This document shows, in pieces, positions 6,138 through 39,231 of a stretch of DNA of 47,124 bases. The stretch comes from a virus. The stretch covers positions 1 to 47,124 of the IMG/VR virus record IMGVR_UViG_3300025327_000052; one strand, 5' to 3'. Position numbers and translations under genes: made by a program. How positions within the stretch are numbered: position 1 is the stretch's first letter; the number at the start of each line of letters is the position of its first letter. Below the pieces are notes generated by a model. It was not told the origin of the DNA. It saw nothing but the letters and a program-made list of their open reading frames with translations, and did not search any database.

Positions 6138-7216
6138 TGGCATGGCTTCGTATTGATGATCGGTTTCGGACGCACCCGAAGATCCAGCGGGCGCAGCTCG
6201 GTGGGTGGCTGCACTTCTGCGGGATCAGTTATTGCCGGGAACACTTGACGGACGGACTGATCCCGCGTGAAGCCGTTGGCACGCTCGCCCCAGGCTTGAT
6301 GACGCCCTACAAGCACGCGGCCAGGCTCGTCGAAGTCGGCCTCTGGCACGAAGAGAAAGACGGCTTTCGAGTGCATGACTTTCTGGACTGGAACCCGACT
6401 CGGGATGAGGTAGAGGCGAACCGCGAATGGGGGCGCCAACGGAAAGGGCTCTACCGGGACAAAGACGTTACGGCCGCCGTGCGAGAGCGTGATCAAAGCC
6501 TCTGCCGCTACTGCGGCGCCCTTGTGAATTGGACCGACCGGCGTAGCGAGTTCGGCGGCCAGTTCGACCATGTGATCCCTCGCGGCCCGGCGACCCTAGA
6601 GAACGTCGTGGTGTCGTGTCGTGGCTGCAACATCCGCAAGAACGACAGAACACCAGATGAAGCCGTAATGCCACTTCTCCAAGTCGGAACTAGTTCTGGA
6701 CGCGAGAAAACTAGTTCTAAACGTCCCGTAACTAGTTCCCCTCACGCGAGCGCGCGTATAGGCGCGGGTGACGCGGGCTTGGGCTCTCTCTCTGGCTCTG
6801 ATCGCTGGGATCTGGATCTGCCGGAAGAGAGTCCGAGAGAAACCACGCCGCCGGTGTGGGTAAAACCTCACGAAACAGCTGGCGCGACCCCGTTACCTAT
6901 TCTGGACGGCCTACACCGCCTGCACGCCTGGTGCTGCTCTCGTGGCGTGTGTGTGCCGATAGGGCTGCACTCGGAGTTCTGCGGACGACTGGGGACGCCT
7001 GACGCTGATGTCAGGTTGCGGGCGTGGTATCCGGCCGTTGTGGCCCAGTTCGAGGGCCGAGGGATCGGGGATAACCTATTCCGCTTCTGGCAGCACGAGT
7101 TCGAGGGCTGGGTTGGCACGGTGACGAGTCGGCCGGCTGACATGAAGGCCGGCAAGGGTGCGCGCATGGTCGAAGCGTTCCGCACAGCCGGCGCGAAGAT
7201 CGGCGGTGGCACGTGA
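6137..7216 (+). CDS. Replication-organizer-like protein with central HNH nuclease domain
   Basis: GTG start in a TAGTG overlap with the GIY-YIG gene; 359 residues. Residues 1-95 (WLRIDDRFRTHPK, GLIPREAVGTL, a paired-helix region, DFLDWNPTRDEV) match the winged-helix N-terminal domain of phage replisome-organizer proteins. Residues 110-175 are an HNH nuclease (C123-x2-C126, Asp144-His145, C161-x2-C164-Asn165). A Ser/Thr-rich linker at about 185-240 is encoded by the 21-bp repeats at 6688-6738. The C-terminal part (about 265-345) has a conserved-looking FCGRLGTPDAD ... LFRFWQHEFEGW region. I infer origin binding and replisome loading, with a possible nicking activity. The next gene may be its loader partner. 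Confidence 0.7.
   Translation: MAWLRIDDRFRTHPKIQRAQLGGWLHFCGISYCREHLTDGLIPREAVGTLAPGLMTPYKHAARLVEVGLWHEEKDGFRVHDFLDWNPTRDEVEANREWGRQRKGLYRDKDVTAAVRERDQSLCRYCGALVNWTDRRSEFGGQFDHVIPRGPATLENVVVSCRGCNIRKNDRTPDEAVMPLLQVGTSSGREKTSSKRPVTSSPHASARIGAGDAGLGSLSGSDRWDLDLPEESPRETTPPVWVKPHETAGATPLPILDGLHRLHAWCCSRGVCVPIGLHSEFCGRLGTPDADVRLRAWYPAVVAQFEGRGIGDNLFRFWQHEFEGWVGTVTSRPADMKAGKGARMVEAFRTAGAKIGGGT
6688..6738 (+). repeat. Three 21-bp-spaced AACTAGTTC iteron-like repeats (candidate origin)
   Basis: AACTAGTTC occurs at 6688-6696, 6709-6717 and 6730-6738, each start exactly 21 bp after the last. The first copy extends to the perfect palindrome GAACTAGTTC. The repeats lie in a locally AT-richer stretch inside the replication-organizer-like gene, in its linker between domains, where they encode a TSS every seven residues. 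Lambda carries its origin iterons inside gene O in the same relative position. Origin function here is inference. Confidence 0.6.
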
Positions 7217-20580: not shown

Positions 20581-20728
20581 GGCGGAGCGCGAAGTGTCGT
20601 AGAATGCGCTGAGTTCTTCGTGTCCGGCCTCTGACGTCCTCGGGTCCTGACGGCGCTCTTTGCGCCGGCACTCCACCAGCCGACCCGCCGCCGGCAGCCG
20701 CCCCTCTTCGGCCTTGGTGCCGTGTGAA

Positions 20729-20947
20729 GTGGCGGCGCCGTTGGCCTACACCCAAAGTGATCTCGACGCGCTGGACCTGCAGATCGCCGCGGCCGGCGCC
20801 GTCAAGTCGACCACCTTCAGCGATCAGTCGACGACCTTCCGCGATCTCGACGACATGCTCAAGCTCCGCGCCGTCATGGCGCAGGAGATCGCCGCGGCGG
20901 CTGGTAGCTCGCGCACGCGGTACGCGGCCACATCCAAGGGCGTCTGA
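20729..20947 (+). CDS. gpW-like head completion protein
   Basis: GTG at 20729 gives 72 residues, near the 68 of lambda gpW; GTG at 20717 is an alternative. LAYTQSDLDALDLQIAAAG, then TTFRDLDDMLKLRAVMAQEI follows the gpW pattern: helix, beta hairpin, helix and a basic disordered tail (SRTRYAATSKGV). Family members plug the portal vertex after packaging. The 161 bases before it (20568-20728) hold the hairpin's end, a 6-bp hairpin at 20651-20667 and no clear gene. TGATG overlap with the methyltransferase. Confidence 0.7.
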   Translation: MAAPLAYTQSDLDALDLQIAAAGAVKSTTFSDQSTTFRDLDDMLKLRAVMAQEIAAAAGSSRTRYAATSKGV

Positions 20948-21552
20948 TGATCGAGACGGCCAGCGATCGCCTGTCCGACATTCGGCAGGTGTACGCCCAA
21001 CACCTGACCCGGTCGCGGGCCATCACGCCGCACTTGCCCCGCTTGTTGGCGCTCGCGGCGTCCTGTGAGACCGCGGTCGAGTTTGGCGTGAAGACCGGCG
21101 CCTCATCGTCGGCGCTGCTCCTGGGGGCGAAGGGCCGAGTGACGAGTTACGACTTGGTCGAGACGCCGCCGGCGCGCGCGCTCGCCCGGATCGCCGGGGA
21201 GAAGTGGGCCTACTGCCTCGAGGATTCCCGGACGGCGGCGGTGCCGCCTGCTGATCTCCTGTTCGTCGATGCGCTCCATACCTACGACCAGGTGGCGGCC
21301 GAACTGTCCGCGCACGCCGCGAAGATCCGGCGTTGGCTGGTGTTCCACGACTCGATCACGTTCGGGAGCATCGGGGCACAGGGCGAAACCGGACAGTGGC
21401 TTTGGAACTACACGCCGGGTCAGGCCGTGCCGCGCGCGGCGCTCGGCATTCGGCCAGCGATCGATGAGCTGATGATCGGCGATCCGTCGTGGCAAATTCG
21501 GGCGCATTACACGGACTCGCACGGACTATTGGTCTTGGAGCGTGCCCGGTGA
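20947..21552 (+). CDS. Class I SAM methyltransferase (family 24-like)
   Basis: A 201-residue Rossmann methyltransferase: AVEFGVKTGASSSALL (43-58) is the AdoMet-binding loop, VTSYDL ends strand 2, and LLFVDALHTYDQVAAEL (104-120) is the family-24 motif with an Asp-His core. Such enzymes methylate small molecules or sugars rather than DNA. It is the first gene of a seven-gene glycan-type block set between gpW and portal; GTGA overlap with the glycosyltransferase that follows. Confidence 0.78.
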   Translation: MIETASDRLSDIRQVYAQHLTRSRAITPHLPRLLALAASCETAVEFGVKTGASSSALLLGAKGRVTSYDLVETPPARALARIAGEKWAYCLEDSRTAAVPPADLLFVDALHTYDQVAAELSAHAAKIRRWLVFHDSITFGSIGAQGETGQWLWNYTPGQAVPRAALGIRPAIDELMIGDPSWQIRAHYTDSHGLLVLERAR

Positions 21553-22211
21553 CGTGGGCCCTCGGCGTGCTGGCCTGGAACGACCCCGCCAGTTGCCGGC
21601 GAACGATCACGGCCCTCGCGGCCGGCGTCTCCGGGGAGTACACGATCACCGTCCTGGACAACGGGTCCGTCGTGCCGATGGCCCTTGATCCCGGAGTCAC
21701 GATCAGTCGGCAACCGAAGAATCTGGGGGCCGGCGGCGGACTGACCGCCCTGGTCAGTTCACTGCTCCACACCGGCGCGGAGGCCCTCCTCTGTGTCGAG
21801 GATGACTGGATCCTCGAGACGCCCCTGGCGCTGGCGGCGTTGGAGCCGCTCCTGATCGATCCGACGGTGGGCCAGATCCGCCTCGGCCGCCGGCCGGCCG
21901 TGCCGGGGACGAAGTACTACACCTACGGCCTGAGTGGGGCAGACGCCGACGCGGCCGCAAGGCAGGTGCATGCGCCGGTCGGGGAGTACCTCCATGGCCA
22001 CTATCAGCGGCTGCGGACGCTGTGGTCGAACAATCCGTTCGCCTGTACGCGCGCGGTGGCGCGCCGATTTCTTCTCACGGGCCTAGATGAACTCCGCATG
22101 GCGCGGCCGTACTACGCGGCGGGGCTCCAGACGATTTCGACGACGCCCGGACATTTCCGGCACCAGGGCGAGATCCGTGACCGACGCGCGAGGAGTGGAT
22201 GGACAAAGTAG
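21549..22211 (+). CDS. GT-A-type glycosyltransferase (220 aa)
   Basis: GTG start by GTGA overlap. Follows a family-2-like plan: short N-terminal strand, YTITVLDNGS (31-40), NLGAGGG (58-64), then LCVEDDW (81-87) as the DxD-type metal and nucleotide-sugar site. No membrane segment, so it works in the cytoplasm. Its 3' end overlaps the dehydratase by 13 bases. Confidence 0.75.
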   Translation: MTWALGVLAWNDPASCRRTITALAAGVSGEYTITVLDNGSVVPMALDPGVTISRQPKNLGAGGGLTALVSSLLHTGAEALLCVEDDWILETPLALAALEPLLIDPTVGQIRLGRRPAVPGTKYYTYGLSGADADAAARQVHAPVGEYLHGHYQRLRTLWSNNPFACTRAVARRFLLTGLDELRMARPYYAAGLQTISTTPGHFRHQGEIRDRRARSGWTK

Positions 22212-23080
22212 TCATTACCGGAGGGTCGGGTCTACTTGGACGCGCGTTGCTGGCGCGCTTGGCCGGCGACGCCGAACTCACGGTGATTTCCCGATCCGAA
22301 ACGCCCCAGTTGCCACTCCGGCGAATGTATCCGAGCGTGCGGTTCCTCTTGGGGGATGTCCGCGACCGGCGCTTCCTCGCGACGGCCTTCGCCGGGCAGG
22401 ATGCCGTCATTCATGCGGCCGCCTTGAAGCATGTCGATCTCTCCGAACGGGAACCGACCGAGTACGTCAGCGTCAACGTCGAGGGCTCACGCCTGGTCGT
22501 CAGGGAAGCCCGGGCAGCCGGCGCCCGCGTGGTCGGGATTTCGACGGACAAGGCCTGCCAACCCTACAACGTGTACGGCCTATCGAAGCTGCTCATGGAG
22601 CGCATGTTCTGCGAGCAGGGCCAGATCGCCGTGCGGTATGGGAACGTTTTCGGCTCGGACGGGTCGGTCATCCCGACCTGGCGCGCGCAACTCGCCGCGT
22701 CGGATCAGATCACCGTCACGGATCCCGAGATGACGCGGTTCTTCTTCCCGGTGGACGCCGCGGTTGACGAGGTTATCTGGGCGCTCGCCTGTGCGCCGGC
22801 GGGGTGTGTCGTCGTGCCACGGCTGCAGGCCGCGTCCTTGGCCGATCTCGCGACGGCCTTTCTCGCCCAGGCCGGACACGGCACGCTGATCGTGTCGGGA
22901 CGCCGGCCGGGGGAAAAACAACACGAGAGTCTACTCTCGGTCGAGGAAGGGAGACGCGCCACGGAACGAGAGGGCCGCGTCCTGGTGACGAGCGCCCCGG
23001 CCGCGTCGCCCCTGGCTCCCATCACCTCCGAGACAGCGGCGCGCCTCAGCGTGCAGGAGTTACAACAATGGATTGGCTGA
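22199..23080 (+). CDS. Nucleotide-sugar dehydratase/epimerase, PseB/CapD-like
   Basis: A 293-residue extended SDR enzyme. TGGSGLLG (7-14) binds NAD(P), GDVRD (52-56) and HAAALKHVD (72-80) follow, then ISTDKA (114-119) and YGLSK (126-130) with catalytic Tyr126 and Lys130. AAALKHV and STDKA are typical of UDP-N-acetylglucosamine 4,6-dehydratases of the PseB/FlaA1/CapD group, which make the precursor of deoxy-amino sugars. This is the only nucleotide-sugar-making enzyme of the block, so the phage appears to bring part of its own sugar pathway. AGGAG lies next to the start; overlaps the next gene by 13 bases. Confidence 0.85.
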   Translation: MDKVVITGGSGLLGRALLARLAGDAELTVISRSETPQLPLRRMYPSVRFLLGDVRDRRFLATAFAGQDAVIHAAALKHVDLSEREPTEYVSVNVEGSRLVVREARAAGARVVGISTDKACQPYNVYGLSKLLMERMFCEQGQIAVRYGNVFGSDGSVIPTWRAQLAASDQITVTDPEMTRFFFPVDAAVDEVIWALACAPAGCVVVPRLQAASLADLATAFLAQAGHGTLIVSGRRPGEKQHESLLSVEEGRRATEREGRVLVTSAPAASPLAPITSETAARLSVQELQQWIG

Positions 23081-24525
23081 CCCGACGGCAGGCGTATTCG
23101 TCCGCCTGCCTGAAACACGCTGCGGACTTTACGCGGGCCCCGGCCGCCTCGACCTTCAAGCGGGATCCGGACTATCGCGCGATCGTCGCCAATGATCTCC
23201 GCGATCTGACGACGACGACTGCCTTTCTGGAGTGGCACCAGGCCCGAGGACCGGTCAAGTCGATCGCCGCGCGCGTCGCGATGAACGACCGCTATGGCGC
23301 CCCCGTGCTTCATCAGATCGGCGGCCATCAGTGGTCGACCGGATCGCTCCGCTATCTGCAGGTGGCCGACGAGATCGGGTCGCAGGCGGCCATTGTGGAA
23401 ATCGGCGGCGGCTATGGGGGGCAACGACTCCTCTGTCCGGACGTCCGCGATTACACAATCGTGGACGTGGCCGAGGCGCTCGTCCTCGCAGAGGCCTACC
23501 TGGCGCCGAGCGGCCTTCCGACGACGTTCGTTGAAGTCGGGCAGCCTATCACGGTGCCTGAGGGCGCCTTCGTGCTCAGTGACTGGGCGTTATCCGAAGT
23601 GCCCGCCGATGTGTGTCGCGATCTCATCGACCGGATCGTTGCGCGGTGCGCCGCGGGCCGGTTCACGGTCGCCGTTGCCGCCGTCGATCGTCTGGTTGCG
23701 GCGCTCGGGCCGCACTTCGCGTCGATCACGAGTGAGCTCGAATCGCCGCGGACGTCCCATCACGACAACCGGGTCATTCGATGCAGTGGTCGGCCGACTG
23801 CTGCGCCGATCCGGCGCGTGCTCAAGGAACCGGCGCGCCCGGAGACCATTCGGCGGTTGACCGGCCTGCTCGAGGCACGCACGCCGTTCGCCTTCTCTCG
23901 GTGGGGCGATGGCGAATGGAGTGCCGTGTTAGGACGTGGCCATGCGAATTGTGACCAGCAACCGTATGCCGACGGGCTGCGGACGGCGTTGGCCGAGGTA
24001 CTCCGCGACGAGCCACCGTATTTGCTCGGGCTGCAACCGATGGCCGTGCGGCGATTCGGTCCAGAGATCGCGGCCTGGCTCGAACGCCATGGCCGGTGGC
24101 CCGCCTGGCTGAATGCCGACGTCTGGCACCAACTCTCCCGGAAGGGCGCCCTTGACACCGTCATCGATCTGCTCCGCGATCGCCCAGTCCTACTCGTGGG
24201 GCCCGCCTATCTGCAGGCGTTGGACGCGCGGGTGCCGCTCGTCGGACACGTCGACGTCCCGACGGTCGACGCGTATGCCGGCCTGGAGGCGATCCAGACG
24301 GACCTGGCCGACCAGCTCAGTCGCCTCGGGCCTGGCGGCGTGGTCGCGTTGAGCGCGGGGATGGTGACCAACGTGATCATTCATGAGTATTGCGGGCGGA
24401 GGCCCACACGGACGTCGCCAGCCACTACCACCTGGATCGACTTCGGGGCCGTCTGGGAGCCCTACGTCGGCCGGACGAATCGCACCTATCACGCGGAGAT
24501 CGTGCGACGGTTGGAGCGTCCCTGA
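23068..24525 (+). CDS. Two-domain protein: sugar O-methyltransferase fused to GT-D-type glycosyltransferase
   Basis: 485 residues. The N-terminal domain (about 30-245) has VEIGGGYGGQRLL (110-122), YTIVDVAEALVLAEAYL and a downstream SDWALSEVP, the pattern of putative sugar O-methyltransferases. The C-terminal domain (about 255-480) has FAFSRWGDGEWSAVLG (274-289), matching the conserved RFGDGE-type motif of GT-D fold glycosyltransferases (DUF1792). A fusion implies coupled transfer and methylation of the same sugar. ATG at 23068 is inside the end of the dehydratase gene; TGATG junction with the next. Confidence 0.7.
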   Translation: MDWLTRRQAYSSACLKHAADFTRAPAASTFKRDPDYRAIVANDLRDLTTTTAFLEWHQARGPVKSIAARVAMNDRYGAPVLHQIGGHQWSTGSLRYLQVADEIGSQAAIVEIGGGYGGQRLLCPDVRDYTIVDVAEALVLAEAYLAPSGLPTTFVEVGQPITVPEGAFVLSDWALSEVPADVCRDLIDRIVARCAAGRFTVAVAAVDRLVAALGPHFASITSELESPRTSHHDNRVIRCSGRPTAAPIRRVLKEPARPETIRRLTGLLEARTPFAFSRWGDGEWSAVLGRGHANCDQQPYADGLRTALAEVLRDEPPYLLGLQPMAVRRFGPEIAAWLERHGRWPAWLNADVWHQLSRKGALDTVIDLLRDRPVLLVGPAYLQALDARVPLVGHVDVPTVDAYAGLEAIQTDLADQLSRLGPGGVVALSAGMVTNVIIHEYCGRRPTRTSPATTTWIDFGAVWEPYVGRTNRTYHAEIVRRLERP

Positions 24526-25154
24526 TGCTGTCGGTCACCGTGGTCACCGCCACGATCGGGGATCGCACCGATCGGCTCCGCGCGCCGACGTGGGTCGCGC
24601 CGGACGTGCGCTATCTCTGCGTGAGCGATCGCCCGGTCGCGCTGCCGCCCTGGGAGTGGCTACCGTGTGACCCCCCGTCCGATCCCACCTGGGCGGCACG
24701 CGAATGGAAAGTGCGACTCCTCGAGCGCGTGGAGACCGATGTCAGCCTGTGGCTGGATGCCGCGTTTCGGCTCGATGTCAATCCGCGCACGTTCCTGCCG
24801 GCCCTGACTGACGTCGACGCCTTGATGTTCCCGCATCCCGACCGGCAGAGCATTACGGAGGAGGCGGGGGCGTTGCGGGCGGCCGGTTACGACGCGCCTG
24901 GACCGCAGGCGGCGGCGTATGCGCAGGACGGCCTGCCGGCCGCGCCGCCCCTCGCCAGCACCGGGTTCCTGCTCCGGCGGCACACGCCAGGCGTTGCGGC
25001 GTTCGGGGCCTACTGGTGGCGCGAATTGCAAGCCTGGGGGCACCCGCGCGATCAGATGAGCGTGAATTACGCCGCCTGGAAGACCGCGCTGCGCTGGGCG
25101 TGGCTGGAGGGGCACTACCGGCAGAACGCGTACGCGAAATGGTTCAAGACATGA
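24525..25154 (+). CDS. Glycosyltransferase-like protein (DUF616/TOD1-type pattern, 209 aa)
   Basis: Starts with a strand and VTATIGDRTDRL, then YLCVSDRP, WAAREWKVRLLE and SLWLDAAFRLDVNP (75-87). The LDA element takes the place of the DxD metal site in this kind of enzyme. The end contains HPRDQMSVNYA. The order resembles DUF616 glycosyltransferases; the match is by eye. ATGA with the following glycosyltransferase. Confidence 0.65.
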   Translation: MLSVTVVTATIGDRTDRLRAPTWVAPDVRYLCVSDRPVALPPWEWLPCDPPSDPTWAAREWKVRLLERVETDVSLWLDAAFRLDVNPRTFLPALTDVDALMFPHPDRQSITEEAGALRAAGYDAPGPQAAAYAQDGLPAAPPLASTGFLLRRHTPGVAAFGAYWWRELQAWGHPRDQMSVNYAAWKTALRWAWLEGHYRQNAYAKWFKT

Positions 25155-25897
25155 CGACAGGGGTAACGCTTCGAGTCAGTGTGCTGACGCCGACGCGGGA
25201 TCGGCCCCACGGGATCGCCCTAGCCGAACGCTGGATGGCCCACCAGACGCGTCCGCCAGACGAATGGATCATCGTGGATGACGGGCTGGAGCCGGCGCCG
25301 CTGACGCAGGGCCAGATCCATCTCCGGCGCGCGGCGGAGCCTGGCTGTGGCGGGGCGCAGAGTCTCTGTCGGAATCTGCTGTGGGGGCTGCCGCGGGTGA
25401 CCGGGGATGTCCTGGTGTTCTGGGAAGATGACGACTACTACGCGCCGACCCACCTCGAACGGATTCTCGCCCAACTCCAACGGCCGGGCGTGTTGATCGC
25501 CGGCGACGATCAACAACGCTATTACAACGTCGCGCATCGGCGCTGGCGGATCTTCAAAAATCGCGGCGCGTGTCTCTGCCAAACGGCCATCCGGCGAGAC
25601 GGGCTGGCGATCGTGGAACGGGCGGCGTGCCAATCGTTGAGTCGGCGCAGTTATGGCGTCGATGCGGGGATCTGGTCCCTGATGCCGCGCCACGCCAAGG
25701 CCCTCGATCGGACCGGCACCGTCGTCGGCATCAAGGGCCTCCCCGGTCAACCTGGCTTGGGGGTTGGCCATCGACCGATCGGTCCGGAGTGGCAGGCGGA
25801 TCTGGACGGGCGCGTCCTCCGGGAGTGGATCGGTCCAGACGCGGCCGTCTATCACGCGTCCGGACAGCCGGCGCTGCGATCGGTGGTGACGTCGTGA
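25151..25897 (+). CDS. Family 2 glycosyltransferase (248 aa)
   Basis: Typical GT-A plan: VSVLTPTRDRP (9-19), EWIIVDDGLEP (38-48), a GAQSLCRNLLWGL donor-side helix, VLVFWEDDDYYAP (87-99) with the DxD-like EDDD. It should transfer a sugar from a nucleotide donor. No membrane segment. GTGA overlap with the next gene of the same type. Confidence 0.82.
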   Translation: MTTGVTLRVSVLTPTRDRPHGIALAERWMAHQTRPPDEWIIVDDGLEPAPLTQGQIHLRRAAEPGCGGAQSLCRNLLWGLPRVTGDVLVFWEDDDYYAPTHLERILAQLQRPGVLIAGDDQQRYYNVAHRRWRIFKNRGACLCQTAIRRDGLAIVERAACQSLSRRSYGVDAGIWSLMPRHAKALDRTGTVVGIKGLPGQPGLGVGHRPIGPEWQADLDGRVLREWIGPDAAVYHASGQPALRSVVTS

Positions 25898-26565
25898 CGC
25901 GACTCGTTCAGGATGGGCGACCTGATGCGGTACGCGCTCGTGGAGGCGACCTCGTGATCCATCCGATGATTCCCTTCGCCCTCGATCTGAACCTTGGCGC
26001 GGCCTACAACCGCGCGATGGCGCTGATCCCGGACGGGGACTGGTGTGCATTTCTCGATCATGACGCCATGCTGCTCACGCGCGAGTGGTATGCCCAGCTC
26101 GTTGAGGCCGTTGAGTTCAAGCCTGACGCTGGCGCGTTCGTGGCGGTGACGAATCGGATCGATGCGGCCTGGCAACGGGCCCAAGAATCCGATCCAGAGA
26201 ATCACGACATCGGGTACCACACCGCGATCGGGCTCGCGCGCCTGCAGGTCCGGACGCTGCTCGACATCACGGACACGAAGGGATTCGGCGGCGTGTTCTT
26301 CGCGCTCTCTAAGGCGGCATGGATCGAGGCGGGCGGCTTCGCCGATGGCCTCCTCTGTGTCGACCATTCTATCCACTTTCGACTGCGACGGTCAGGCCGC
26401 CGGATCTATTTGATGGAAAACCTGTACATCTACCATCGGCGTCGCGCCTTCATCGGCAAGTTGCCGGAGGACACGCCGCGCGTCGCGAATTGCCCGTGCC
26501 GAGGGCCGGAACCGATGCCGACCGTTCGCCTCACGTTACCGACTCCGACTGCGAGGACCGTATGA
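25894..26565 (+). CDS. Family 2-type glycosyltransferase (223 aa)
   Basis: GTG start by GTGA overlap. Lacks the usual first strand; LNLGAAYNRAM (32-42) and CAFLDHDAMLL (51-61) with Asp55/Asp57 form the nucleotide-sugar site, and GFGGVFFALSKAAWIEAGGF is the family's acceptor-side motif. The short N-terminus suggests a reduced domain. Its 3' end overlaps the portal gene as ATGA, so the block is translationally coupled to the structural genes. Confidence 0.75.
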   Translation: MTRLVQDGRPDAVRARGGDLVIHPMIPFALDLNLGAAYNRAMALIPDGDWCAFLDHDAMLLTREWYAQLVEAVEFKPDAGAFVAVTNRIDAAWQRAQESDPENHDIGYHTAIGLARLQVRTLLDITDTKGFGGVFFALSKAAWIEAGGFADGLLCVDHSIHFRLRRSGRRIYLMENLYIYHRRRAFIGKLPEDTPRVANCPCRGPEPMPTVRLTLPTPTARTV

Positions 26566-28094
26566 AATCCCACTGGCTCGACCGTGTCACGTCCGGTATT
26601 GCGCCCGCCTGGACGCTGCGACGGCAGCGGGCTCGCGCGGCGATGGACCTGCTGGCGCGACACTACGAGGCCGCCGGCACGGGACGCCGAACGCAGGGGT
26701 GGCGTCGGTCCAGCGGCGACGCTAACGCCGTGGTCGGGCCCGCGCTCACCCGGCTGCGCGAGAACGCGCGGGACCTGGTCCGGAACAATCCGTTCGCGGA
26801 GAGTGCCCTGAGCACGATCGCGGATCACGCGGTCGGTACCGGCATTATCGCGAAGCCCGTGCCGGCGGATGGACGCGCGTTGGCCGCCTGGCAAGCGTGG
26901 GCCGAGACGACGGCCTGTGATGCGGACAACCGGCACGACTTCTACGGCCTGCAGAAGTTGGTCATGCGCACCGTGGTGGAATCGGGGGAGGTTCTCGTCC
27001 GGCGCCGGATCCGCCGCCTCGACGACAACCTCCCGATCCCGATGCAGATCCAGGTCCTGGACCCGGACTTTCTTGACACGTCCAAGGACACGACGGGCCT
27101 GACCGGCAACGGCCGCATCATCCAGGGCGTGGAGTTCGACGGCATCGGCCGGCGCATCGCCTATTGGCTCTTTCCGCAGCATCCCGGCTCCTCGCTGAGC
27201 ACGATGGGGGCGTCGGTGCGGGTGCCGGCGGACTCTGTGCTCCACGTCTTTCGACCGACGCGGCCGGGGCAGGTGCGGGCACCGAGCTGGTTCGCGCCGG
27301 TCCTGCTGCGGTTCAAGGATTTCGACGAGTTCGAAGACGCGACGCTGATGAAGCAGAAGATCGCGGCGTGCTTGGCGGTCCTCACGACCGATCCGGATGG
27401 GTCGGCCTCCCCGCTCGGCACGGCGGATGACACGCAGACGCCCGTGGTGGACAGCCTGGAGCCTGGGATGATCATGAACCTGACGCCCGGACGGGATGTG
27501 CACGTGGTGGAGCCGCCCCAGGCGCGAGACTACGAGTCCTATTCCAAGACGGTGCTCCGCGCGATCGCCACCGGCATCGGCGTGACCTATGAGGATCTGA
27601 CCGGGAGCTACGAAAACCTCCCCTTCTCCGCGGCGCGCATGTCCAGGATTCGCCACTGGGCGCGCGTCGAGGACTGGCGCTGGCGGATCCTGATCCCGCA
27701 GTTCTGCGATCCGGTCTGGGCGTGGGCGATGCAGGCGGCCGTGATCATGAATCAAGTCATCGGCATGCCGGGCGCCGAGTGGACCGCGCCCCCGCCGCCG
27801 ATGGTGGACCCGGTCAACGAAGGCCTGGCCTACCAGCGCAACGTCCGGACGGGCATCCAGAGCCTGTCCGACGCGATTCGTGAGCGCGGGTACGACCCGG
27901 ACACGCTCTTCGCCGAGATGGCGGCCGACAACAAGAAGCTCGACGACCTTGGACTGGTGGTCGACAGCGATCCTCGCAAGATGACGCAGGCGGGTCAAGC
28001 GCAATCGCCGCTGGCCGACGCGCCTGACGCGCGAGACGCTGACGCCACCCGATCCCGTTCCTCGTTTCTGACGGCGGTCGGGGGGCGTCAGTGA
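26562..28094 (+). CDS. Portal protein, lambda gpB-like
   Basis: A 510-residue portal of the lambda family: ARDLVRNNPFAESALSTIADHAVGTGI near residue 72, the GEVLVRRRIR strand, QVLDPDFLD, ADSVLHVFRPTRPGQVRAPSW and MKQKIAACLAVL, then SYENLPFSAARMSRI. It forms the dodecameric ring at the unique head vertex through which DNA enters and leaves and to which the tail joins. It is preceded by the glycan block rather than directly by gpW as in lambda. GTGA overlap with the glycosyltransferase that follows. Confidence 0.92.
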   Translation: MKSHWLDRVTSGIAPAWTLRRQRARAAMDLLARHYEAAGTGRRTQGWRRSSGDANAVVGPALTRLRENARDLVRNNPFAESALSTIADHAVGTGIIAKPVPADGRALAAWQAWAETTACDADNRHDFYGLQKLVMRTVVESGEVLVRRRIRRLDDNLPIPMQIQVLDPDFLDTSKDTTGLTGNGRIIQGVEFDGIGRRIAYWLFPQHPGSSLSTMGASVRVPADSVLHVFRPTRPGQVRAPSWFAPVLLRFKDFDEFEDATLMKQKIAACLAVLTTDPDGSASPLGTADDTQTPVVDSLEPGMIMNLTPGRDVHVVEPPQARDYESYSKTVLRAIATGIGVTYEDLTGSYENLPFSAARMSRIRHWARVEDWRWRILIPQFCDPVWAWAMQAAVIMNQVIGMPGAEWTAPPPPMVDPVNEGLAYQRNVRTGIQSLSDAIRERGYDPDTLFAEMAADNKKLDDLGLVVDSDPRKMTQAGQAQSPLADAPDARDADATRSRSSFLTAVGGRQ

Positions 28095-28828
28095 CCCCAC
28101 GGCTCGAGGCGGTCTACTTCGATGATGGCCCGTACGATGATTTCGCGAGACTCGCGCGGGTCCTCGAGCATACGGCTGACCAGCACTGCGGGGGCTGGCG
28201 GCGGGCCATCACGCGCCTGGATCCGCCGCGGCGCCGGGCGGGCAGCTCGTCCATGGTAGCGAATACCGTGAAGCTGAATCGCTGGTGTGACCTGGTCGCC
28301 TCGGCCGAGGACGGCGAGCAGATCCTGCTCCTCGACACGGATACGGCGCTGCTGCGCGCGATCGATGCGATCTGGGAGCGGCCGTTCGACGTGGCCTACG
28401 CCACTAAGGTGCACGACTTCCAGTTCAATCTCGGCGTGTTCTTCTTGCGGGTGACCGCGCGCGTCCGGACACTGTTCGAGACCTGGCGCGCGGAGAACGC
28501 GCGGCTCTTCCGCACATGGTCGGAGGACCCGACCTGGCGCACGCGGTATGGCGGCGTGAACCAGGCCTCCTTCGGGTCGCTGATCCAGACGGGCGCCCTC
28601 GAGGGGGTGGACGTCTGCGAGCTCGCCTGCGCCGAATGGAACTGCGAGGAGAGCGCCTGGCCGGCGTTCGATCCGGCGGTGACGCGAATCCTTCATCTGA
28701 AAGGTGCCCTGCGGCGATCCGTGTTTCATCGGCAGACCCCTCCGGCGGACCTGCTGCCGGCGGTCTCGGCTTGGCGCCAGCTCGACCGTGAGTCGCGTCG
28801 CGGCGCGAAGGCGGCCGCGGCGTCATGA
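28091..28828 (+). CDS. Glycosyltransferase-like protein (245 aa)
   Basis: GTG start by GTGA overlap with the portal. QILLLDTDTALL (77-88) is a DxD-type site of GT-A fold enzymes; FNLGVFFLRVTARVRTLFETW and NQASFGSLIQTGALEGV resemble family 8-like retaining or nucleotide-diphospho-sugar transferases. It is the eighth glycan gene, separated from the other seven by the portal. Its start and end both overlap structural-operon genes. Confidence 0.7.
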   Translation: MTPRLEAVYFDDGPYDDFARLARVLEHTADQHCGGWRRAITRLDPPRRRAGSSSMVANTVKLNRWCDLVASAEDGEQILLLDTDTALLRAIDAIWERPFDVAYATKVHDFQFNLGVFFLRVTARVRTLFETWRAENARLFRTWSEDPTWRTRYGGVNQASFGSLIQTGALEGVDVCELACAEWNCEESAWPAFDPAVTRILHLKGALRRSVFHRQTPPADLLPAVSAWRQLDRESRRGAKAAAAS

Positions 28829-29097: not shown

Positions 29098-31143
29098 GTG
29101 CCTCCGGCTGCCAGCACGACGGTTGAACTCCTGCCGCTCTGTCGGCGCGCGGCCGTTCAGTCCAGCACGATCGATGAAGAGAATCGCACGATCGAGTTGA
29201 TTTTTACGACCGGCGCGGCGGTGCGCCGGTTCGACTGGTGGACCGGGAAGGCCTACCTCGAAAAATTGTCGCTTGATCCCAAGCATGTCCGCCTCGATCG
29301 GCTGAACAACGGCGCCCCACTGCTCAATGCCCATAGCGGGTACTCGATCGAAGACCAGATCGGGGTCGTGGAAGACGGCTCGGCCAAGGTGGTCGGGAAG
29401 AAGGCGATCGCCACGGTGCGCTTTTCCGCGCGCGAGGCGGTCGAGCCCATCTGGCGCGACGTGAAGGACAAGATCGTCCGGAACGTCAGCGTCGGCTACC
29501 TCATCCACAAGTTCGAAGAGACGGTGGGTACGGACGGCGCGATCCCCACGCGGACCGCGACGGACTGGGAACCGTACGAAATCTCGATGGTCCCGATGCC
29601 GGCTGATGCCGGCGCGCAAACCCGGGCCGGCAAAAAGCCCGCCGGGGTCGCGACCTACCCCTGCGAAATAGTGACCCGCGGCGCCGTAGCGCCGGCGGAT
29701 GTTCCGACTGAGGAGCCGACCATGTCTGAAGTTCGCACCACGCCGTCCGAAACCATCGCGGAGATGAATCCGCTCGACCCGGGCGCGCCGACGCCGCGAG
29801 CCACGCCGGCCGTGCCGGTGGAGAAGAACGATCTCGACAAGGGCGGCGACGCCGAGCGTGAGCGGATCACCGGCATCATGGCGGCCTGCACGGCGGCGCG
29901 CATGCCCGCGGCGTTTATGCAGAAGATGATCGCCGACAAGATCCCGCTCGTGCGGGCGCAGGCGATGGTGTTCGAGGAGCTGGCCCGGCGGGGCGGCGAT
30001 CACGGAGCCGGCCCGCAAACCTCCGACGTCCGCGTCGGGGGCGAGGATGTGCTCGTCCATGCCCGCAAGGGGATCGAGAACGCGATCCTGCATCGTGTGG
30101 CACCGGCGAAGAACAAACTCGACGACATCGGGCGCCCCTATCGGGGCATGAGCCTGATGGATTGCGCGCGCGCCTTCCTGCAGGCGGCCAACATCCGGAC
30201 GACCGGGATGTCGCCCATGCAGATCGCCGGCGTCGCGCTCGGTCTGGATGTCCGCGGCGGCTACCACACGACCTCCGACTTCGCGAACCTGCTGGCCGAC
30301 GTCTTCAGCAAGACCCTGCGGCAGGCCTACGCCGAGTCGCCCCAGTCGTACGCCGACTTCGTGCGCTTCGTGACGGTGCCGGATTTCAAGACGGTCAGCC
30401 GTATTCAGCTCGGGGAGGCGCCCGCGCTCGAGGAGGTGCTGGAGCACGGGGAGTTCAAGCGCGGCACCATTGCCGACGGCAAGGAACAGTACGCGCTGGC
30501 TACCTACGGCAAGGTGTTCGCCATCACGCGGAAGGCACTCGTCAACGACGACACCGACGCGTTCTCCCGCCTCACGGCGCTGTTCGGCCGGGCCGCCCGC
30601 CAAAAGGAATCCGATCTCGTCTGGGCGCAGATCACCAGCAACCCGACGATGGGCGACACCAACGCGCTCTTCAGCGCGGCCCACGGCAACCTGCAGACCG
30701 ACGGCGATGTGATTTCGATCGCCTCGCTCGGAAGGGCGCGCGCGGCCATGCGGATCCAGAAGGGCCTGGACGGCGTGACGCTGCTCAACATCACCCCGCG
30801 GCTCATTCTGGTGCCGACGACCCTGGAGACGGTCGCGGATCAGTACATGGCGCTCATCACGCCGGGCACAGCCGCCGCGGCCAATCCGTTCTCCGGCAAG
30901 CTCAAGGTCATCGTCGAGCCGAGGCTCGACGCGGACAGTGTGACCGCGTGGTACGTCGCGGCCTCGCCGGACCAGCTCGACATGATCGAAGTCGCGCACC
31001 TGGAGGGCGAAGAGGGGCCACAGGTCGAGAGCCGGGTCGGCTTCGACGTGGACGGGCTGGAAGTGAAGGCGCGGCTCGACGCGGCGGCGAAGGTCATCGA
31101 CTGGCGCGGCTTCCACAAGGATCCGGGCGAGCTGGTCAGCTAA
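29098..31143 (+). CDS. Prohead protease / major capsid protein fusion
   Basis: 681 residues; GTG start with only weak ribosome-binding sequence. Residues 20-180 are an S78/HK97-type prohead protease: LLNAHSG with His79, IVRNVSVGYLIHKFE with Ser131, EPYEISMVPMPAD with Glu158/161. Residues about 330-680 are a Mu gpT-like major capsid domain (FANLLADVFSKTLRQAY, FVTVPDFKTV, IVEPRLDADSVTAWY). The linker of about 150 residues is charged and helical and may act as scaffold. The protease should cut the capsid protein free during maturation. This fusion occurs in other prophages. Confidence 0.85.
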   Translation: MPPAASTTVELLPLCRRAAVQSSTIDEENRTIELIFTTGAAVRRFDWWTGKAYLEKLSLDPKHVRLDRLNNGAPLLNAHSGYSIEDQIGVVEDGSAKVVGKKAIATVRFSAREAVEPIWRDVKDKIVRNVSVGYLIHKFEETVGTDGAIPTRTATDWEPYEISMVPMPADAGAQTRAGKKPAGVATYPCEIVTRGAVAPADVPTEEPTMSEVRTTPSETIAEMNPLDPGAPTPRATPAVPVEKNDLDKGGDAERERITGIMAACTAARMPAAFMQKMIADKIPLVRAQAMVFEELARRGGDHGAGPQTSDVRVGGEDVLVHARKGIENAILHRVAPAKNKLDDIGRPYRGMSLMDCARAFLQAANIRTTGMSPMQIAGVALGLDVRGGYHTTSDFANLLADVFSKTLRQAYAESPQSYADFVRFVTVPDFKTVSRIQLGEAPALEEVLEHGEFKRGTIADGKEQYALATYGKVFAITRKALVNDDTDAFSRLTALFGRAARQKESDLVWAQITSNPTMGDTNALFSAAHGNLQTDGDVISIASLGRARAAMRIQKGLDGVTLLNITPRLILVPTTLETVADQYMALITPGTAAAANPFSGKLKVIVEPRLDADSVTAWYVAASPDQLDMIEVAHLEGEEGPQVESRVGFDVDGLEVKARLDAAAKVIDWRGFHKDPGELVS

Positions 31144-32407: not shown

Positions 32408-33022
32408 ATGGGTGTCGGCTACGCCAACTCTTCCCCGTACGAGATTATCGGGGCGCCGTTCACGGCCTGGATCGCGGCCGCCGGGTCGACGAAGCCCGTC
32501 ATTGACAATGCCGTCGGGTCGCCCTGGATCCTGATCGGATCCTCAGGCAACCTGAATCAGACCGAGGAAGGGATCACGGTCGAACATCGGCAGACGATTG
32601 TCGACTTTCGGGCCGCGGGCGACGCCGGCACCCGGAAGCGTTTCCGCACCGAAGAGCAACTGCTCGTCCGGTTCACCATTGCCGATCTGAAACTCGAACA
32701 GTACATGCTCGCGCTCGAACACAACACGGTCACGACGGTGGCGCCGTCGGGTGGGGTCGTCGGCTACAAGTGGGTCGGGCTGAGTCGTAATCTCGTCCTC
32801 ACGGCGCGCGCGCTCTTGCTCCGGGGGCCGTCACCCTACGGCGATCTAATGGTGATGCAGTATTTCCTGCCACTCGTCCAGCAGTCTGGCAATCCCACCC
32901 CAGTCTTCAGGAAGGGCGAGGCCGCCGGGTTGGCCTTCGAGTACAGCGCCCTCGTGGACGTGACCGCCGCGACGGACGCGGAACGGTTCGGGCGACTCGA
33001 AGCGCAGCATCTGGCCAGCTAA
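32408..33022 (+). CDS. Major tail (tube) protein (204 aa)
   Basis: ATG with AAGGAGTTCGATTT upstream, the best ribosome site in the tail region. Beta-rich protein with the tail-tube plan: an N-terminal strand pair, an extended loop with LNQTEEGITVEHRQTIVDFR, a central helix (LKLEQYMLALEHN) and strands toward the end (AAGLAFEYSALVDVT). Position before the assembly chaperones and tape measure agrees. It should form the stacked hexamer tube. Confidence 0.8.
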   Translation: MGVGYANSSPYEIIGAPFTAWIAAAGSTKPVIDNAVGSPWILIGSSGNLNQTEEGITVEHRQTIVDFRAAGDAGTRKRFRTEEQLLVRFTIADLKLEQYMLALEHNTVTTVAPSGGVVGYKWVGLSRNLVLTARALLLRGPSPYGDLMVMQYFLPLVQQSGNPTPVFRKGEAAGLAFEYSALVDVTAATDAERFGRLEAQHLAS

Positions 33023-34505: not shown

Positions 34506-37388
34506 ATGCCGATCTTCAAACTGGGCCGCGCCGTCCTCGAGTTCGCGGGAGACAAGACCCAACTTGAGGCGGCGCTCAAAGCCGCTGGCATCGACGTCAA
34601 ATCCTTCAAAAAGGAGACCGAGGGCGCCACCGGGACCGTCGGCAAGTTCGCGAGCAGTCTCAAAGGCGTCGGCGCGCTGATCGGCGTGTCGTTCACCGTC
34701 GGCGCCGTCGTCAACTTCACCAAGAAAGTCTTCGACGCGGCCTCGGCGATCAACGACCAGTCGAAATCCCTCGGCTTCGGGGCTGAGAACTTCCAACGGT
34801 ACGCGTTCGCGGCGAAGCAGTCCGGCGCCGACCAGGAGATTTTCACCAAGAGCGCGAGCGTCCTGAACGACAAGCTGGCTGGCGGCGACAAGTCGACCGT
34901 GGCGGCGCTGAAGAAGGCCGGCCTGGAGTATGAGTCCATCCGGGCGATGAAGCCGGACCAGGCCTTCCTCGCGGTCTCCAACGCGGTCGGCAAGATCGAA
35001 GATCCCATGCTGCGCGCCAACGTCGCGCAGGACCTGTTCGGTAAGGGCGCCCTGAAACTACTGCCCGGGATGATCGAGGGCTACGAGAAGCTCGGCGCCG
35101 GTGCCAAGGTCATGTCGGACGAAACGATCCGGCGGCTCGAGGCCGCGCAGGACGAGTGGGAGGCTTTCGCCAACAGCGTCGTCATTCACACCGGCGAGAT
35201 TCTCGGCGCGATTGCGGGCCTCGGCGAGGAAGCCTCGAAGTCCAAGGCGTTCCAGTTGGTATTCCTCCCACCGAACGCCTCTGCGGCCCTGCGGGCGCAA
35301 ATATTGGCGGAGCTGCCGAAAGAGCCGTTCAAGGGCGCACTAGACCGTTTCGGTGTCGGGGCGCTCAACGAGGCCCAAGCGAAGGCCCTGGGGATCCTGA
35401 GTAGCGCGCCGGGTTTTGTCGCCAGGATTAAGGCGGCGCGCGAGCAACTATCGAGGTTGACCGCGGAGCAACGAGAGCAACTCGACGCCGCCCAGCAGCT
35501 CGAAGGTCAATTTACGGCGCTGGCGAATAGTTACGATCTCAGCGCCGATGCGCAGAAGATCTACACCTCCAACGCGAAGGACACGGAAAAAGCCCTCAAG
35601 GATCAGGCCGATGCCGCCAAGAAGTTGCTCGACCTGCAGAACAAGATCTACGGCCGAGACTTGATCGCGCGAGCCAATGAAATGGCGGCCGCGCTCGGCG
35701 ACACCGGAGACGTGACGCGGTTGTTGCCTGGGATGCAGAAAGACTTCCTCGGCACCGTCGACAGCGCGATTGCCGCGTATCAACGGCTTGGTGAGGTTGC
35801 GCCGTCGGCGCTGCTGTCGATTCGAGACGCGCTGGTGCCACTGGTGGCCGTGAATGAGTTGGCGGAGGGCGTCGAAACGAACGTCAACGCGATCCTGTTT
35901 CGACTGGGTCAGCTCGGCACGAAGGTCGGCCGGTTGTTGCCTTCGATTACGACGGTGCCGTTCGATCCGTCGGCGCTCCAGGGCACGCGCGTCAACCTTG
36001 GGCGGCCGAGCCTGGCGCGCCTGTTGGGCATCGACCTTGAGGCGGCCGGCCACGAGTTCAGTCAACAGCTCGGCCCGACGGTCCTGCAGGCGCTGACCGG
36101 CGGCGGCAGCGTGAGCCAATCGATCGGCGGCCTGGCCGGGATGCAGATCGGGAAGTCGCTCAGCACCACCTTCGGCGGCGTCATCAAGAAAGGGCTCGGC
36201 GAGAAAATAGGCGGCGCGCTCGGGTCGTTCATTCCTGGGATTGGCGCGCTGATCGGTCCGCTTCTCGGCAAGGGCCTCTCGGCGCTCGGCGGTCTGTTCG
36301 GGATCGGGCCGAGTGAAATGGAAAAGGTCCGCCAAGCTCGTGCCGAGTGGCTGAAGGCGGCGGGTGGCCTCGACAAGCTCAACAAGTCGGTCGGCGCGGT
36401 GGCCGGCGATCCGAAGGTCCGCGCGGCCTGGAATGATCTGTTCAACGCCAAGAAGCTGAAGGACTACGAAGCCGCGCTCGCCGCCTTCAACACGACGGTG
36501 GCCGAGGCGCAGGCGGCGCTACAGCTCCGGCTCGGCGAAGAGCAGGAGGCGCGGGACTTCCTGCAGGCCACGGTCGAGAAATACGGCTTCACGATCGATC
36601 AGCTCGGAGACAAGTGGAAACAGCAGGCGCTCACGGATGAGGCCATGCTCCTGGTCCGAGAGTACACGGCGCTGACCCGATCGGGCATCGACCACAACCT
36701 GGTGATCGAGAAGATGGGGGAGAACATGAACACGTTCTTCCTCAAAGCGATCAAGACCGGCGTTGAGGTCCCGAAACAGTTGCGGCCGTTGCTGCAACAG
36801 ATGATCGATCAGGGCACGCTCATCGACGAGAACGGCCAGGCGTTTGACTCCCAGGCGCTCGATGCGGTCCATTGGAGCCAGACCCTGACCGAGCAGCTCC
36901 AGCTCGTGATCGACAAGCTGGGCGAACTGGTCGACGTCATCACGGGCAAACTCGGGAAGGCCATCGAGGAGATCCCGACGCTGGAGATCCCAGTCGCGCC
37001 GCTGAGCAATCGACAGCGGGCGTTCAATCGCGCCAGGGGGCTTGAGAGCTTTGCCACGGAAGCCTTTGTGCGTCGCCCGACGATGGCGCTCGTCGGGGAC
37101 GTGCCGGGCGGCGAGTTCGTGCTGAAGCCGTCCACGATCGCGGGCTGGCTCGACCGTGCGGCTGGATCCGCCTCTGAAGGCCTAAATGGTGACCGTCTCG
37201 GCCGACAGATCGCGGCGGCCATCGCCCCGGCCCTGCAGCGGGACGGTGAGGACTTCGTACTCGTCGTCGACGGAGAAGTGCTAGGTCGTGTCGTTGGACG
37301 CCACCGGGCAACCCAGGAGGAGCTGAGCCGAGGCATCGCGCTCAACACGTTCGGGCTGGGCACGGCCGTCAGACAGGCCAGCTCATGA
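34506..37388 (+). CDS. Tape measure protein (960 aa)
   Basis: The longest helical protein of the tail region, in the expected place. The N-terminus (LGRAVLEFAGDKTQLEAALKAAGIDVKSFKKE) is the standard tape-measure start. A hydrophobic segment lies at about 55-75 and a Gly-rich hydrophobic region at about 545-610 (IGGALGSFIPGIGALIGPLL), typical of parts that enter the host membrane during DNA injection. 960 residues suggests a tail in the 140-150 nm range if lambda's ratio holds, which is inference. ATGA overlap with the next gene. Confidence 0.9.
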   Translation: MPIFKLGRAVLEFAGDKTQLEAALKAAGIDVKSFKKETEGATGTVGKFASSLKGVGALIGVSFTVGAVVNFTKKVFDAASAINDQSKSLGFGAENFQRYAFAAKQSGADQEIFTKSASVLNDKLAGGDKSTVAALKKAGLEYESIRAMKPDQAFLAVSNAVGKIEDPMLRANVAQDLFGKGALKLLPGMIEGYEKLGAGAKVMSDETIRRLEAAQDEWEAFANSVVIHTGEILGAIAGLGEEASKSKAFQLVFLPPNASAALRAQILAELPKEPFKGALDRFGVGALNEAQAKALGILSSAPGFVARIKAAREQLSRLTAEQREQLDAAQQLEGQFTALANSYDLSADAQKIYTSNAKDTEKALKDQADAAKKLLDLQNKIYGRDLIARANEMAAALGDTGDVTRLLPGMQKDFLGTVDSAIAAYQRLGEVAPSALLSIRDALVPLVAVNELAEGVETNVNAILFRLGQLGTKVGRLLPSITTVPFDPSALQGTRVNLGRPSLARLLGIDLEAAGHEFSQQLGPTVLQALTGGGSVSQSIGGLAGMQIGKSLSTTFGGVIKKGLGEKIGGALGSFIPGIGALIGPLLGKGLSALGGLFGIGPSEMEKVRQARAEWLKAAGGLDKLNKSVGAVAGDPKVRAAWNDLFNAKKLKDYEAALAAFNTTVAEAQAALQLRLGEEQEARDFLQATVEKYGFTIDQLGDKWKQQALTDEAMLLVREYTALTRSGIDHNLVIEKMGENMNTFFLKAIKTGVEVPKQLRPLLQQMIDQGTLIDENGQAFDSQALDAVHWSQTLTEQLQLVIDKLGELVDVITGKLGKAIEEIPTLEIPVAPLSNRQRAFNRARGLESFATEAFVRRPTMALVGDVPGGEFVLKPSTIAGWLDRAAGSASEGLNGDRLGRQIAAAIAPALQRDGEDFVLVVDGEVLGRVVGRHRATQEELSRGIALNTFGLGTAVRQASS

Positions 37389-38161
37389 TCAGCACCTGCT
37401 ACTACTGCCGGCCGTCCGATAACTTGACGCCGAGTGCCACGCTCAGCCTCACGGCGGGCACCGAGGCGGGCGCCTTCCCGCTGACGAATGCGCAAGATCG
37501 GATCGCGCGCACCGTCTTCAAGTCCACCGGCACGAGCTGCACGATTCGATCGCATTGGTCGGCTCCGGTCACGATCGAGGGCCTGTCGCTTCATTACCAC
37601 AAACTGGCTGGAGCCACGGTCACGGTGACGAACCCGGCCGGGTTCAGCCGTGCGCTGACAATCCCGGCGAACACGGCTGACGGCCATTGCCTCGATCCTT
37701 GGGACGACTACCGGACGCTCGCCAACGTCACCGATGACGATTGGGACATTGTGATCACGGGCGCCGCGACGGTCGTCGCCATTGGGGAAATCGTCTGGTG
37801 GCAGACGGTCCGCGAGGCGATCCTGGACCGCGGCGCTGTCGGCGATGAGAACCAGCCGGCGGTCGTGCATGCCGGCGACTACCACCCACGCATCAACGCC
37901 TACCGGATGGGGACGCGTGTGCGCGCGTTCCGGGGCCACATCGTGCCGGCCGACGTCGCGGCCGACATCCTCACGCTGTCGCGTGGCGCTCAGGGTGTGA
38001 TGCTGCCGTTTGCGCTCGTCCCGGACTCTACGGTGAACGACGCGCTCTTCGGCCATCTGGCGACGACCCGGCACACGTTTCTGGAGTCCTACCCGCGCGG
38101 GTCCGGGGCGCGCGAGACGGATCTTGAGTTCGCTGAGGCGCTTCGCGGGCTGGCTTTATGA
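37385..38161 (+). CDS. Tail tip/baseplate protein (258 aa)
   Basis: Begins MISTCYYCRPSDNLTP and is almost wholly beta-rich, with internal symmetry (LSLTAGTEAGAFPL ... VTVTNPAGFSRALTI). Position right after the tape measure suggests a distal-tail or tip protein. It ends in an ATGA overlap with the next gene. No specific family recognised. Confidence 0.62.
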   Translation: MISTCYYCRPSDNLTPSATLSLTAGTEAGAFPLTNAQDRIARTVFKSTGTSCTIRSHWSAPVTIEGLSLHYHKLAGATVTVTNPAGFSRALTIPANTADGHCLDPWDDYRTLANVTDDDWDIVITGAATVVAIGEIVWWQTVREAILDRGAVGDENQPAVVHAGDYHPRINAYRMGTRVRAFRGHIVPADVAADILTLSRGAQGVMLPFALVPDSTVNDALFGHLATTRHTFLESYPRGSGARETDLEFAEALRGLAL

Positions 38162-39231
38162 GCGCCATAGACGCTGATACCCCCTCCTGGTACACGCGGG
38201 CGCAATTGCCGCGCGGGTACACCGTCGTCGAGAACGGCGCGATCGAGATCGGGCCCTACGGTCGCGCCGGCGCCTCGGCGATCCGATTCTCCGGGGATCC
38301 GGACGACTACATCGAACGGGTGTGTGACGGGCATCGGACCGAGGTGCCGTCTGGGGCGACTGCGATCGGCGAGCGCGATCTCCGAGTGACGTCCTATCCT
38401 TCGGCCGGACAGCGAAAGATGATCCTCGCGGTCCTTGAAGGTGGGGACGTGCAGGATGGGCTGTATCTGGAGGACGACGGCACGCTCTCCGCCTGCCGCG
38501 GTGAAGGCGGCGCGCTGACGGTGCTCGGGACGTCGACGTTCGTGCTGCCGCTTGCCACGGACTACCGGCTCGGGTTCAAGGTGCTCATCCATGCCAGTGC
38601 CGGCACGGTGGATGTGCAAGCGCAAGGCCCAGGCGACAACACACCGCAGAACGTGCTGGCCCTGACCGGCAAAGACACGCTCGAAACAGCGAGTGCGACC
38701 TGGGATGGCTATCGACTCGGGTCCGCGTCACCGGCCGTAAGCACCTGTGAAAACTGGGTCTGGAAAGATGGCAGCGGCGGCGTGCACGACGATCTGTCCA
38801 GTTCGCCGCAGAACGTGGTCGGGGTGGTCAGGCCGATCGCCGATGGGGCACATAGCGACTGGATCCGGTCAACGGGCCTGCAGCAGTTCGCGGGCATCGA
38901 TGACATCGCGGCGGATGATGACATTTCCTACAACCAAGGGGACGTCGACGGCGATATCGATGTCGTCCAGATGGCCCAGGCGCCTGATCCGAACCAGCCG
39001 ATCGCGTTCGTGGTGATGAACTTCGTCGCCCGGAACGGCGGCGGCAGCGAGGAAGTCTCGCATGTCATGCGTCAAGGCGGGTTGGATACCGTTGGCGCCA
39101 GTCATGGCCTGGCGGCCAATTATCTGCCGTATGTGGAAGTGCATCAGGTGTCGCCCGATGCGACGCCGTGGTCGACGGCAGTCTGGGCGGCGCTTGACGG
39201 CGCGGGCTATCAGCGGACGGACCCCACATGA
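38158..39231 (+). CDS. Tail protein with lectin-like beta-sandwich (357 aa)
   Basis: Residues 40-200 have the look of a concanavalin/LamG sandwich (AGQRKMILAVLEGGDVQDGLYLEDD, YRLGFKVLIHASAGTVDVQAQ), a fold that often binds sugars at tail tips. A second part (about 200-350) is acidic and Asp-rich with DDIAADDDISYNQGDVDGD, possibly calcium-binding. A host-receptor role is plausible. ATGA overlap with the following large tip protein. Confidence 0.6.
   Translation: MSAIDADTPSWYTRAQLPRGYTVVENGAIEIGPYGRAGASAIRFSGDPDDYIERVCDGHRTEVPSGATAIGERDLRVTSYPSAGQRKMILAVLEGGDVQDGLYLEDDGTLSACRGEGGALTVLGTSTFVLPLATDYRLGFKVLIHASAGTVDVQAQGPGDNTPQNVLALTGKDTLETASATWDGYRLGSASPAVSTCENWVWKDGSGGVHDDLSSSPQNVVGVVRPIADGAHSDWIRSTGLQQFAGIDDIAADDDISYNQGDVDGDIDVVQMAQAPDPNQPIAFVVMNFVARNGGGSEEVSHVMRQGGLDTVGASHGLAANYLPYVEVHQVSPDATPWSTAVWAALDGAGYQRTDPT

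Follow-up and report, generated by a model that had tools for sequence, protein, structure and literature searches.

To our knowledge, the tailed phages with demonstrated glycosylation of the virion are so far all actinobacteriophages, most of them mycobacteriophages. Work on the trait has dealt with its effect on the antibodies of mammals, a selective force that phages in soil scarcely encounter. In Mycobacterium phages, glycans are reported at the C-termini of the capsid and tail-tube proteins (Freeman 2023, as cited in PMC12619734; see also PMC11256854). Phages of cluster O carry an O-methyltransferase and three glycosyltransferases (GTs) beside the portal gene, the Corndog block (PMC4351075), and the enzymes of cluster O are reported to act on capsid and tail tube alike (PMC11600133, citing Freeman 2023). 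A comparable locus is present in a phage of soil type represented by IMG/VR virus record IMGVR_UViG_3300025327_000052, the 47,124 nucleotides (nt) of which are referred to here as the window. On its + strand, seven genes at 20947-26565 lie between a gpW-like head-tail adaptor gene (W) and a lambda-family portal gene. An earlier note on this DNA stated that no phage system of this makeup had been described at this place, which is too strong in view of the cluster O block. We favour, with a probability of roughly 0.7, the explanation that the island is a virion glycosylation cassette, the products of which would O-glycosylate the C-terminal Ser or Thr (S/T) of the major capsid and tail-tube proteins in the cytoplasm.

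A sugar-gene island in the head operon

The left border of the island is formed by W (20660-20947), which matches phrog_2545 ‘head-tail adaptor Ad1’ (E-value 5.5e-6) and phrog_118 and probably has its true start further inside these limits. The first island gene encodes a class I methyltransferase (20947-21552; Methyltransf_24, PF13578, 2.4e-7) and begins within the W stop codon (TGATG). Its stop is overlapped by 4 nt by the second gene (21549-22211), which has a GTG start and a product without a match in Pfam, PHROG or NCBIfam; this may be a GT-A-like glycosyltransferase, as read from an N-terminal strand, a DDW motif and the context, and is the weakest of the functional calls. The third gene (22199-23080) encodes a soluble short-chain dehydrogenase/reductase (SDR) of the UDP-GlcNAc 4,6-dehydratase type, with clear family membership as judged by its match to PF02719 (Polysacc_synt_2, 4.6e-61), the PDB matches to Cap8E (8.9e-44) and to the FlaA1-type UDP-GlcNAc 4,6-dehydratase 2gn4 (6.4e-42), and the active-site stretch STDKA..Y..SK. 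Its best NCBIfam model is PseB (TIGR03589), at 189 bits under a cut-off of 408, and a PseB/FlaA1/Cap8E-type product is putative. The fourth gene (23068-24525) encodes a two-domain protein in which a putative sugar O-methyltransferase (TIGR04371, 1.8e-9, sub-threshold) is joined to a GT-D-like glycosyltransferase; its C-terminal half shows 53% identity to a protein of the phage contig L082, and a PF08759 GT-D gene is present in comparable islands of L003 and L018. The remaining three genes encode a TOD1/MUCI70 (former DUF616) glycosyltransferase-like protein (24525-25154; PF04765, 9.4e-8) with a relative in L018, a GT2 glycosyltransferase (25151-25897; Glycos_transf_2, PF00535, 1.4e-9) and a second, weaker GT2-like glycosyltransferase (GT2b, 25894-26565; phrog_14179, 8.8e-14). 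The portal gene (26562-28094; PF05136, 1.4e-107) forms the right border.

Directly after the portal, a further gene (28091-28828) encodes a GT8-fold glycosyltransferase with a conserved DxD motif, which is the eighth transferase of the set despite its position. Foldseek searches with its AlphaFold model (predicted local distance difference test score, pLDDT, 91.4) matched glycogenin, Gat1 and a capsid GT of PBCV-1, and the predicted fold thus resembles those of protein-glycosylating GTs. Every junction in the block overlaps, by 1, 4 or 13 nt (TGATG, GTGA, ATGA), as do the junctions of the GT8 gene with the portal and with the next gene. In construction the block matches the remainder of the head operon, and the GC content at third codon positions is similar, at 0.75-0.86 in its genes and 0.81-0.88 in the head and tail genes. 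Gene calls and family matches therefore bear out the seven-gene glycan block and the overlapping junctions that the earlier note had described, and annotation agrees with the functions it proposed, to which we add the two domains of the fourth gene and the GT8 enzyme, which it had missed.

No membrane segments were found in any of the eight proteins (maximum Kyte-Doolittle score over 19 residues, KD19, 1.76), and the Pfam matches of the block include no GtrA/GtrB, flippase, polymerase or undecaprenyl-P transferase. The predicted solubility of all the proteins fits modification in the cytoplasm, before or during assembly. The earlier note had left two targets for the sugar, the phage's own capsid or tail and the surface of the host. 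The first is favoured by the S/T termini of both proteins considered below. The second, in which the enzymes would alter polysaccharides on the surface of the host, in lysogeny or as infection nears its end, for superinfection exclusion or seroconversion, found no support in the block and is improbable: although envelope loci typically contain PseB/CapD, GT2 and sugar methyltransferase families, and GT-carrying phages are often interpreted in this way (PMC10955285), a host-surface role lacks its membrane-spanning components here, sits poorly with a block wired into the head operon and leaves the capsid and tube termini unexplained.

More improbable still is a role of the GTs in hypermodifying the DNA of the phage as protection from restriction. 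DNA-glucosylating GTs are common among phages and the window does contain an N6/N4 DNA methylase gene (4276-4908), but no thymidylate-synthase-type enzyme was detected with PF00303, for which the positive control was found, nor any TET/JBP match with PF12851, for which the positive control was silent too. This proposal, moreover, offers no role for the sugar dehydratase, the sugar O-methyltransferases or the capsid and tube termini, and was rejected as these scans had yielded no supporting genes. The methylase gene is one of a group at 946-2438, 2815-3426, 4276-4908 and 6077-7216 that also comprises ERF and YqaJ recombination genes and HNH endonuclease genes.

Recurrence and variation in related phages

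Eighty related loci were found in IMG/VR contigs with the window portal. These contigs are mostly fragments, and ‘non-carrier’ is used here for a record with no GT within the DNA examined. W homologues lie directly upstream of the portal in most relatives, the median W-portal gap being 30 nt across 70 W-bearing loci (window included). Long gaps occur in six W-bearing records, the window (5.6 kb) and L003, L004, L007, L010 and L018 (3.6-8.3 kb), and all are filled with sugar genes; L003, L004 and L005 represent one phage, and other contigs too are copies or close relatives. The gene sets are diverse: L003 carries two GT2 enzymes, GT-D, an epimerase, FkbM and class I methyltransferases, L007 and L010 a GT2/PIG-L fusion, and L018 GT-D, TOD1, a GT8-like enzyme, GT2 and methyltransferases. 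These sets of GT, methyltransferase, SDR and PIG-L genes differ among relatives with portals that are 65-74% identical. Homologues of GT2b precede the portal in L006, L007 and L073, with 68-75% amino acid (aa) identity and dN/dS values of 0.16-0.23, which, together with the recurrence of the island in related phages, argues that the block is not a chance pattern of open reading frames (ORFs).

The GT8 gene follows the portal in 12/13 portal-selected records with GTs before the portal, compared with 1/61 of the others, counts that include a few near-duplicate contigs. Single-sequence viral scans with the fourth island protein (MT2-GTD), GT2b and GT8 gave few or no loci, whereas a GT8 profile gave 49; tblastn of GT8 and of the methyltransferase against 50,697 deposited phage records produced no match. 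The further carriers reached with the profile have their sugar genes between terminase and W or, in L122, L129 and L131, ahead of the terminase, and some of them hold GT4-type enzymes. Since it is nearly always near the portal, has the DxD motif and has a predicted fold like those of glycogenin, Gat1 and the PBCV-1 capsid GT, the GT8 enzyme is the best candidate for adding the first sugar. We do not claim that GT8 alone suffices, as L121 and L269 carry GT4-type neighbours too.

Recurrence with varying content, together with the co-occurrence of GT8, identifies the site as a hotspot of exchangeable glycan cassettes with GT8 as the constant companion. The earlier note had held that its proposal would fall, among other cases, if the block were a locus of the host envelope present by accident in a single assembly. 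This is ruled out, since related phages hold equivalent islands in the same operon in independent assemblies. The window phage and dozens of its relatives hold swappable sets of sugar genes in the head operon and, given the S/T-ended capsid and tail proteins that go with these sets, probably coat their own particles with sugar.

The stretch from terminase to portal seems to be a general insertion hotspot. Another insert of 7 kb between terminase and W, in L031/L032 (2875-9399), contains two ORFs of ~900 aa without a GT match, and the W-portal gap of L056 (1950-2885) contains a single 312-aa protein with no family match, in a phage with a capsid ending in ..NPGA. Nine kb of unrelated genes separate portal and capsid in L011 (5208-13379), including those for a 680-aa Gly/Ala/Ser/Val repeat protein and an HNH-like protein. 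The tail tip genes of the window (37385-42398) have no detectable relatives among the first-fetched loci; the head genes are conserved.

C-termini of the capsid and tail-tube proteins

The ends of the virion proteins were examined because of the mycobacteriophage precedent. The major capsid protein of the window is fused to the prohead protease (29098-31143; NF045541, 741 bits) and ends in ...DPGELVS, the last Ser being the proposed acceptor; the profile stops 4 residues short of this C-terminus, and a capsid profile gave no match to PDB sequences. Ser/Thr-rich C-terminal extensions as acceptor domains were looked for and rejected, there being just a tail of 0-4 residues in the capsid, and the last residue was therefore tested. 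After removal of near-copies, this residue is S/T in 18/18 carriers and 2/47 non-carriers (Fisher 3.8e-14, kinship not corrected). Non-carrier relatives end in ..NPGA, ..NAGA or ..NAGV; in carriers, S or T invariably occupies the final position, with residues -2 to -4 varying freely. A PF00535 scan of 35 whole non-carrier records yielded nothing above the cut-off.

The probable tail tube protein (32408-33022, 204 aa), assigned by synteny a few genes ahead of the tape measure and without a family match, ends in ...EAQHLAS and would provide the second acceptor. Its family is unrelated to the capsid and ends in S/T in 21/22 carriers. Among genomes in which both ends are available, both are S/T in 15, neither in 6, the capsid only in 2 and the tube only in none (p 2.8e-4). 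Portal and gpW show no association of an S/T end with carrier status, and the terminase ends so in 0/26 carriers and 16/99 others, if anything the opposite direction. The capsid of L237 ends as in the window (..PGELVS) and its tube differently (..DDTAS), both in Ser, and the tubes have thus been swapped with the Ser signature kept.

Several observations weigh against glycosylation at these ends. In a capsid tree from which the C-terminus was left out, the carriers cluster, with ~5 changes of state, three of them forced by supported branches; the terminus tracks carrier state in independent pairs (3/3 on supported branches), but with so few independent events significance at 0.05 is out of reach for a sign test. 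Among the exceptions, L127 has a tube with a terminal Leu, the L011/L252 capsid ends in ..EEDS on a 23.7 kb fragment that yielded no GT, and L085 and L088 end in S/T with no GTs seen. In a second, unrelated capsid family, the lambda-E-like one, S/T ends occur in 14/14 carriers and in 12/22 non-carriers, the records of which gave no GT2 above the cut-off for PF00535; an S/T terminus alone is thus no proof, and this family was not counted as an independent replicate. The AlphaFold model of the window capsid had a pLDDT of 59, too low for locating the C-terminus, and was not used. The GTs of the window show no convincing homology to those of cluster O, the best blastp match (gp35 to GT2b) having an E-value of 0.006; GT-A folds are widespread, and homology to cluster O or F1 GTs is not a defining feature.

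Within the lambda-E-like family, a small residue followed by S/T was noted post hoc in 13/14 carriers and 1/22 non-carriers. Many capsids of this type in L159-L202 end in IKLTKS or IKGKRT, thus keeping a basic residue before the terminal Ser/Thr, with no GTs detected.

The clustering of carriers and the S/T ends of lambda-E-like capsids without GTs would also be expected if the cassette glycosylated another virion protein or an internal site, such as a decoration protein or tail fibre, and the terminal Ser/Thr were a trait of the lineage. A 117-aa decoration-like protein is indeed more often S/T-ended in carriers (6/14 vs 5/38, p 0.05). This alternative is unlikely, although less so than a host-surface role: it does not account for two unrelated proteins switching their last residue together, for L146 and L121, which obey the rule although their capsids branch well away from that of the window, or for the same pair of termini in mycobacteriophage Che8 and in cluster O. 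In L056, L070, L072 and L084 a 115-aa decoration-like protein after the capsid has an extra C-terminal domain of ~120 aa.

Proposed pathway and comparison with known systems

If the island is a virion glycosylation cassette, it would be translated late, alongside the head genes. Together with enzymes of the host, the SDR would supply a dehydrated nucleotide sugar, possibly a 4-keto-6-deoxy sugar; the GT8-fold enzyme would probably start the glycan at the Ser or Thr in which the capsid and tail-tube subunits end, the other soluble cytoplasmic GTs would extend a short O-glycan, and the two methyltransferase domains may cap or decorate it. The outcome would be a sugar coat on head and tail with a structure that varies by phage as the cassette is swapped. 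Whether the trait is widespread and modular well beyond the actinophages, with a portal-linked GT8 initiating, exchangeable cassettes rewriting the glycan and the last residues of two virion proteins predicting the trait in that capsid lineage, is in our view an evenly balanced question. If true, a fast-changing cassette in unrelated environmental phages would make virion glycosylation a general trait and suggest a natural role for it in the setting of phage, bacterium and soil, and the readable acceptor signature would provide a sequence rule for finding further cases. Such islands also provide small enzyme sets, all soluble, with which a protein might be glycosylated at its C-terminus inside the cytoplasm.

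Phage-borne GTs are also found in the serotype-converting gtr cassettes, but these depend on membrane GtrA/GtrB and a membrane GT, none of which occurs in the window block. Glycogenin and Gat1 share with the GT8 model a GT-A fold with DxD and act on proteins; with 13-19% identity the likeness is structural only. The chlorovirus PBCV-1 likewise encodes GTs that glycosylate its capsid, one of which the GT8 model resembles (2p72, template modelling score, TM, 0.59/0.69), but it is a eukaryotic virus with another capsid and other acceptor sites, and identity is ~12%.

The closest likeness is to mycobacteriophage virion glycosylation, in which phage-encoded soluble GTs and an O-methyltransferase are tied to structural genes. 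Che8 (F1), which is reported to be glycosylated, has a capsid ending in ..KTGS and a tail protein ending in ..SDGS, and the cluster O phages Firecracker and Dylan, with an O-methyltransferase and GTs between portal and protease, have ..LVGS and ..KGDS, respectively. The other head and tail proteins checked in Che8 and Firecracker mostly have no S/T end (the exception is Firecracker gp40, ..STS), and in Brevibacterium phage AGM4, with no GT seen in the head region, both proteins end in Val. As in cluster O, the enzyme genes of the window stand beside the portal in the head operon, and capsid and tail tube are Ser-ended. In contrast to cluster O, the island lies mostly before the portal, is larger and includes SDR, GT-D, TOD1 and GT8, to which relatives of the window add GT4, PIG-L and FkbM. 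The window phages differ from the mycobacteriophages in their lambda-type portals, in that their glycan is a predicted one, and in showing no sign so far of an actinobacterial host; the nearest genome contigs belong to a Vicinamibacterales metagenome-assembled genome (MAG; 55%) and, as a short contig that is possibly mis-binned, to a Thermoleophilia MAG (62%). The system is best explained as a non-actinophage variant of the mycobacteriophage kind.

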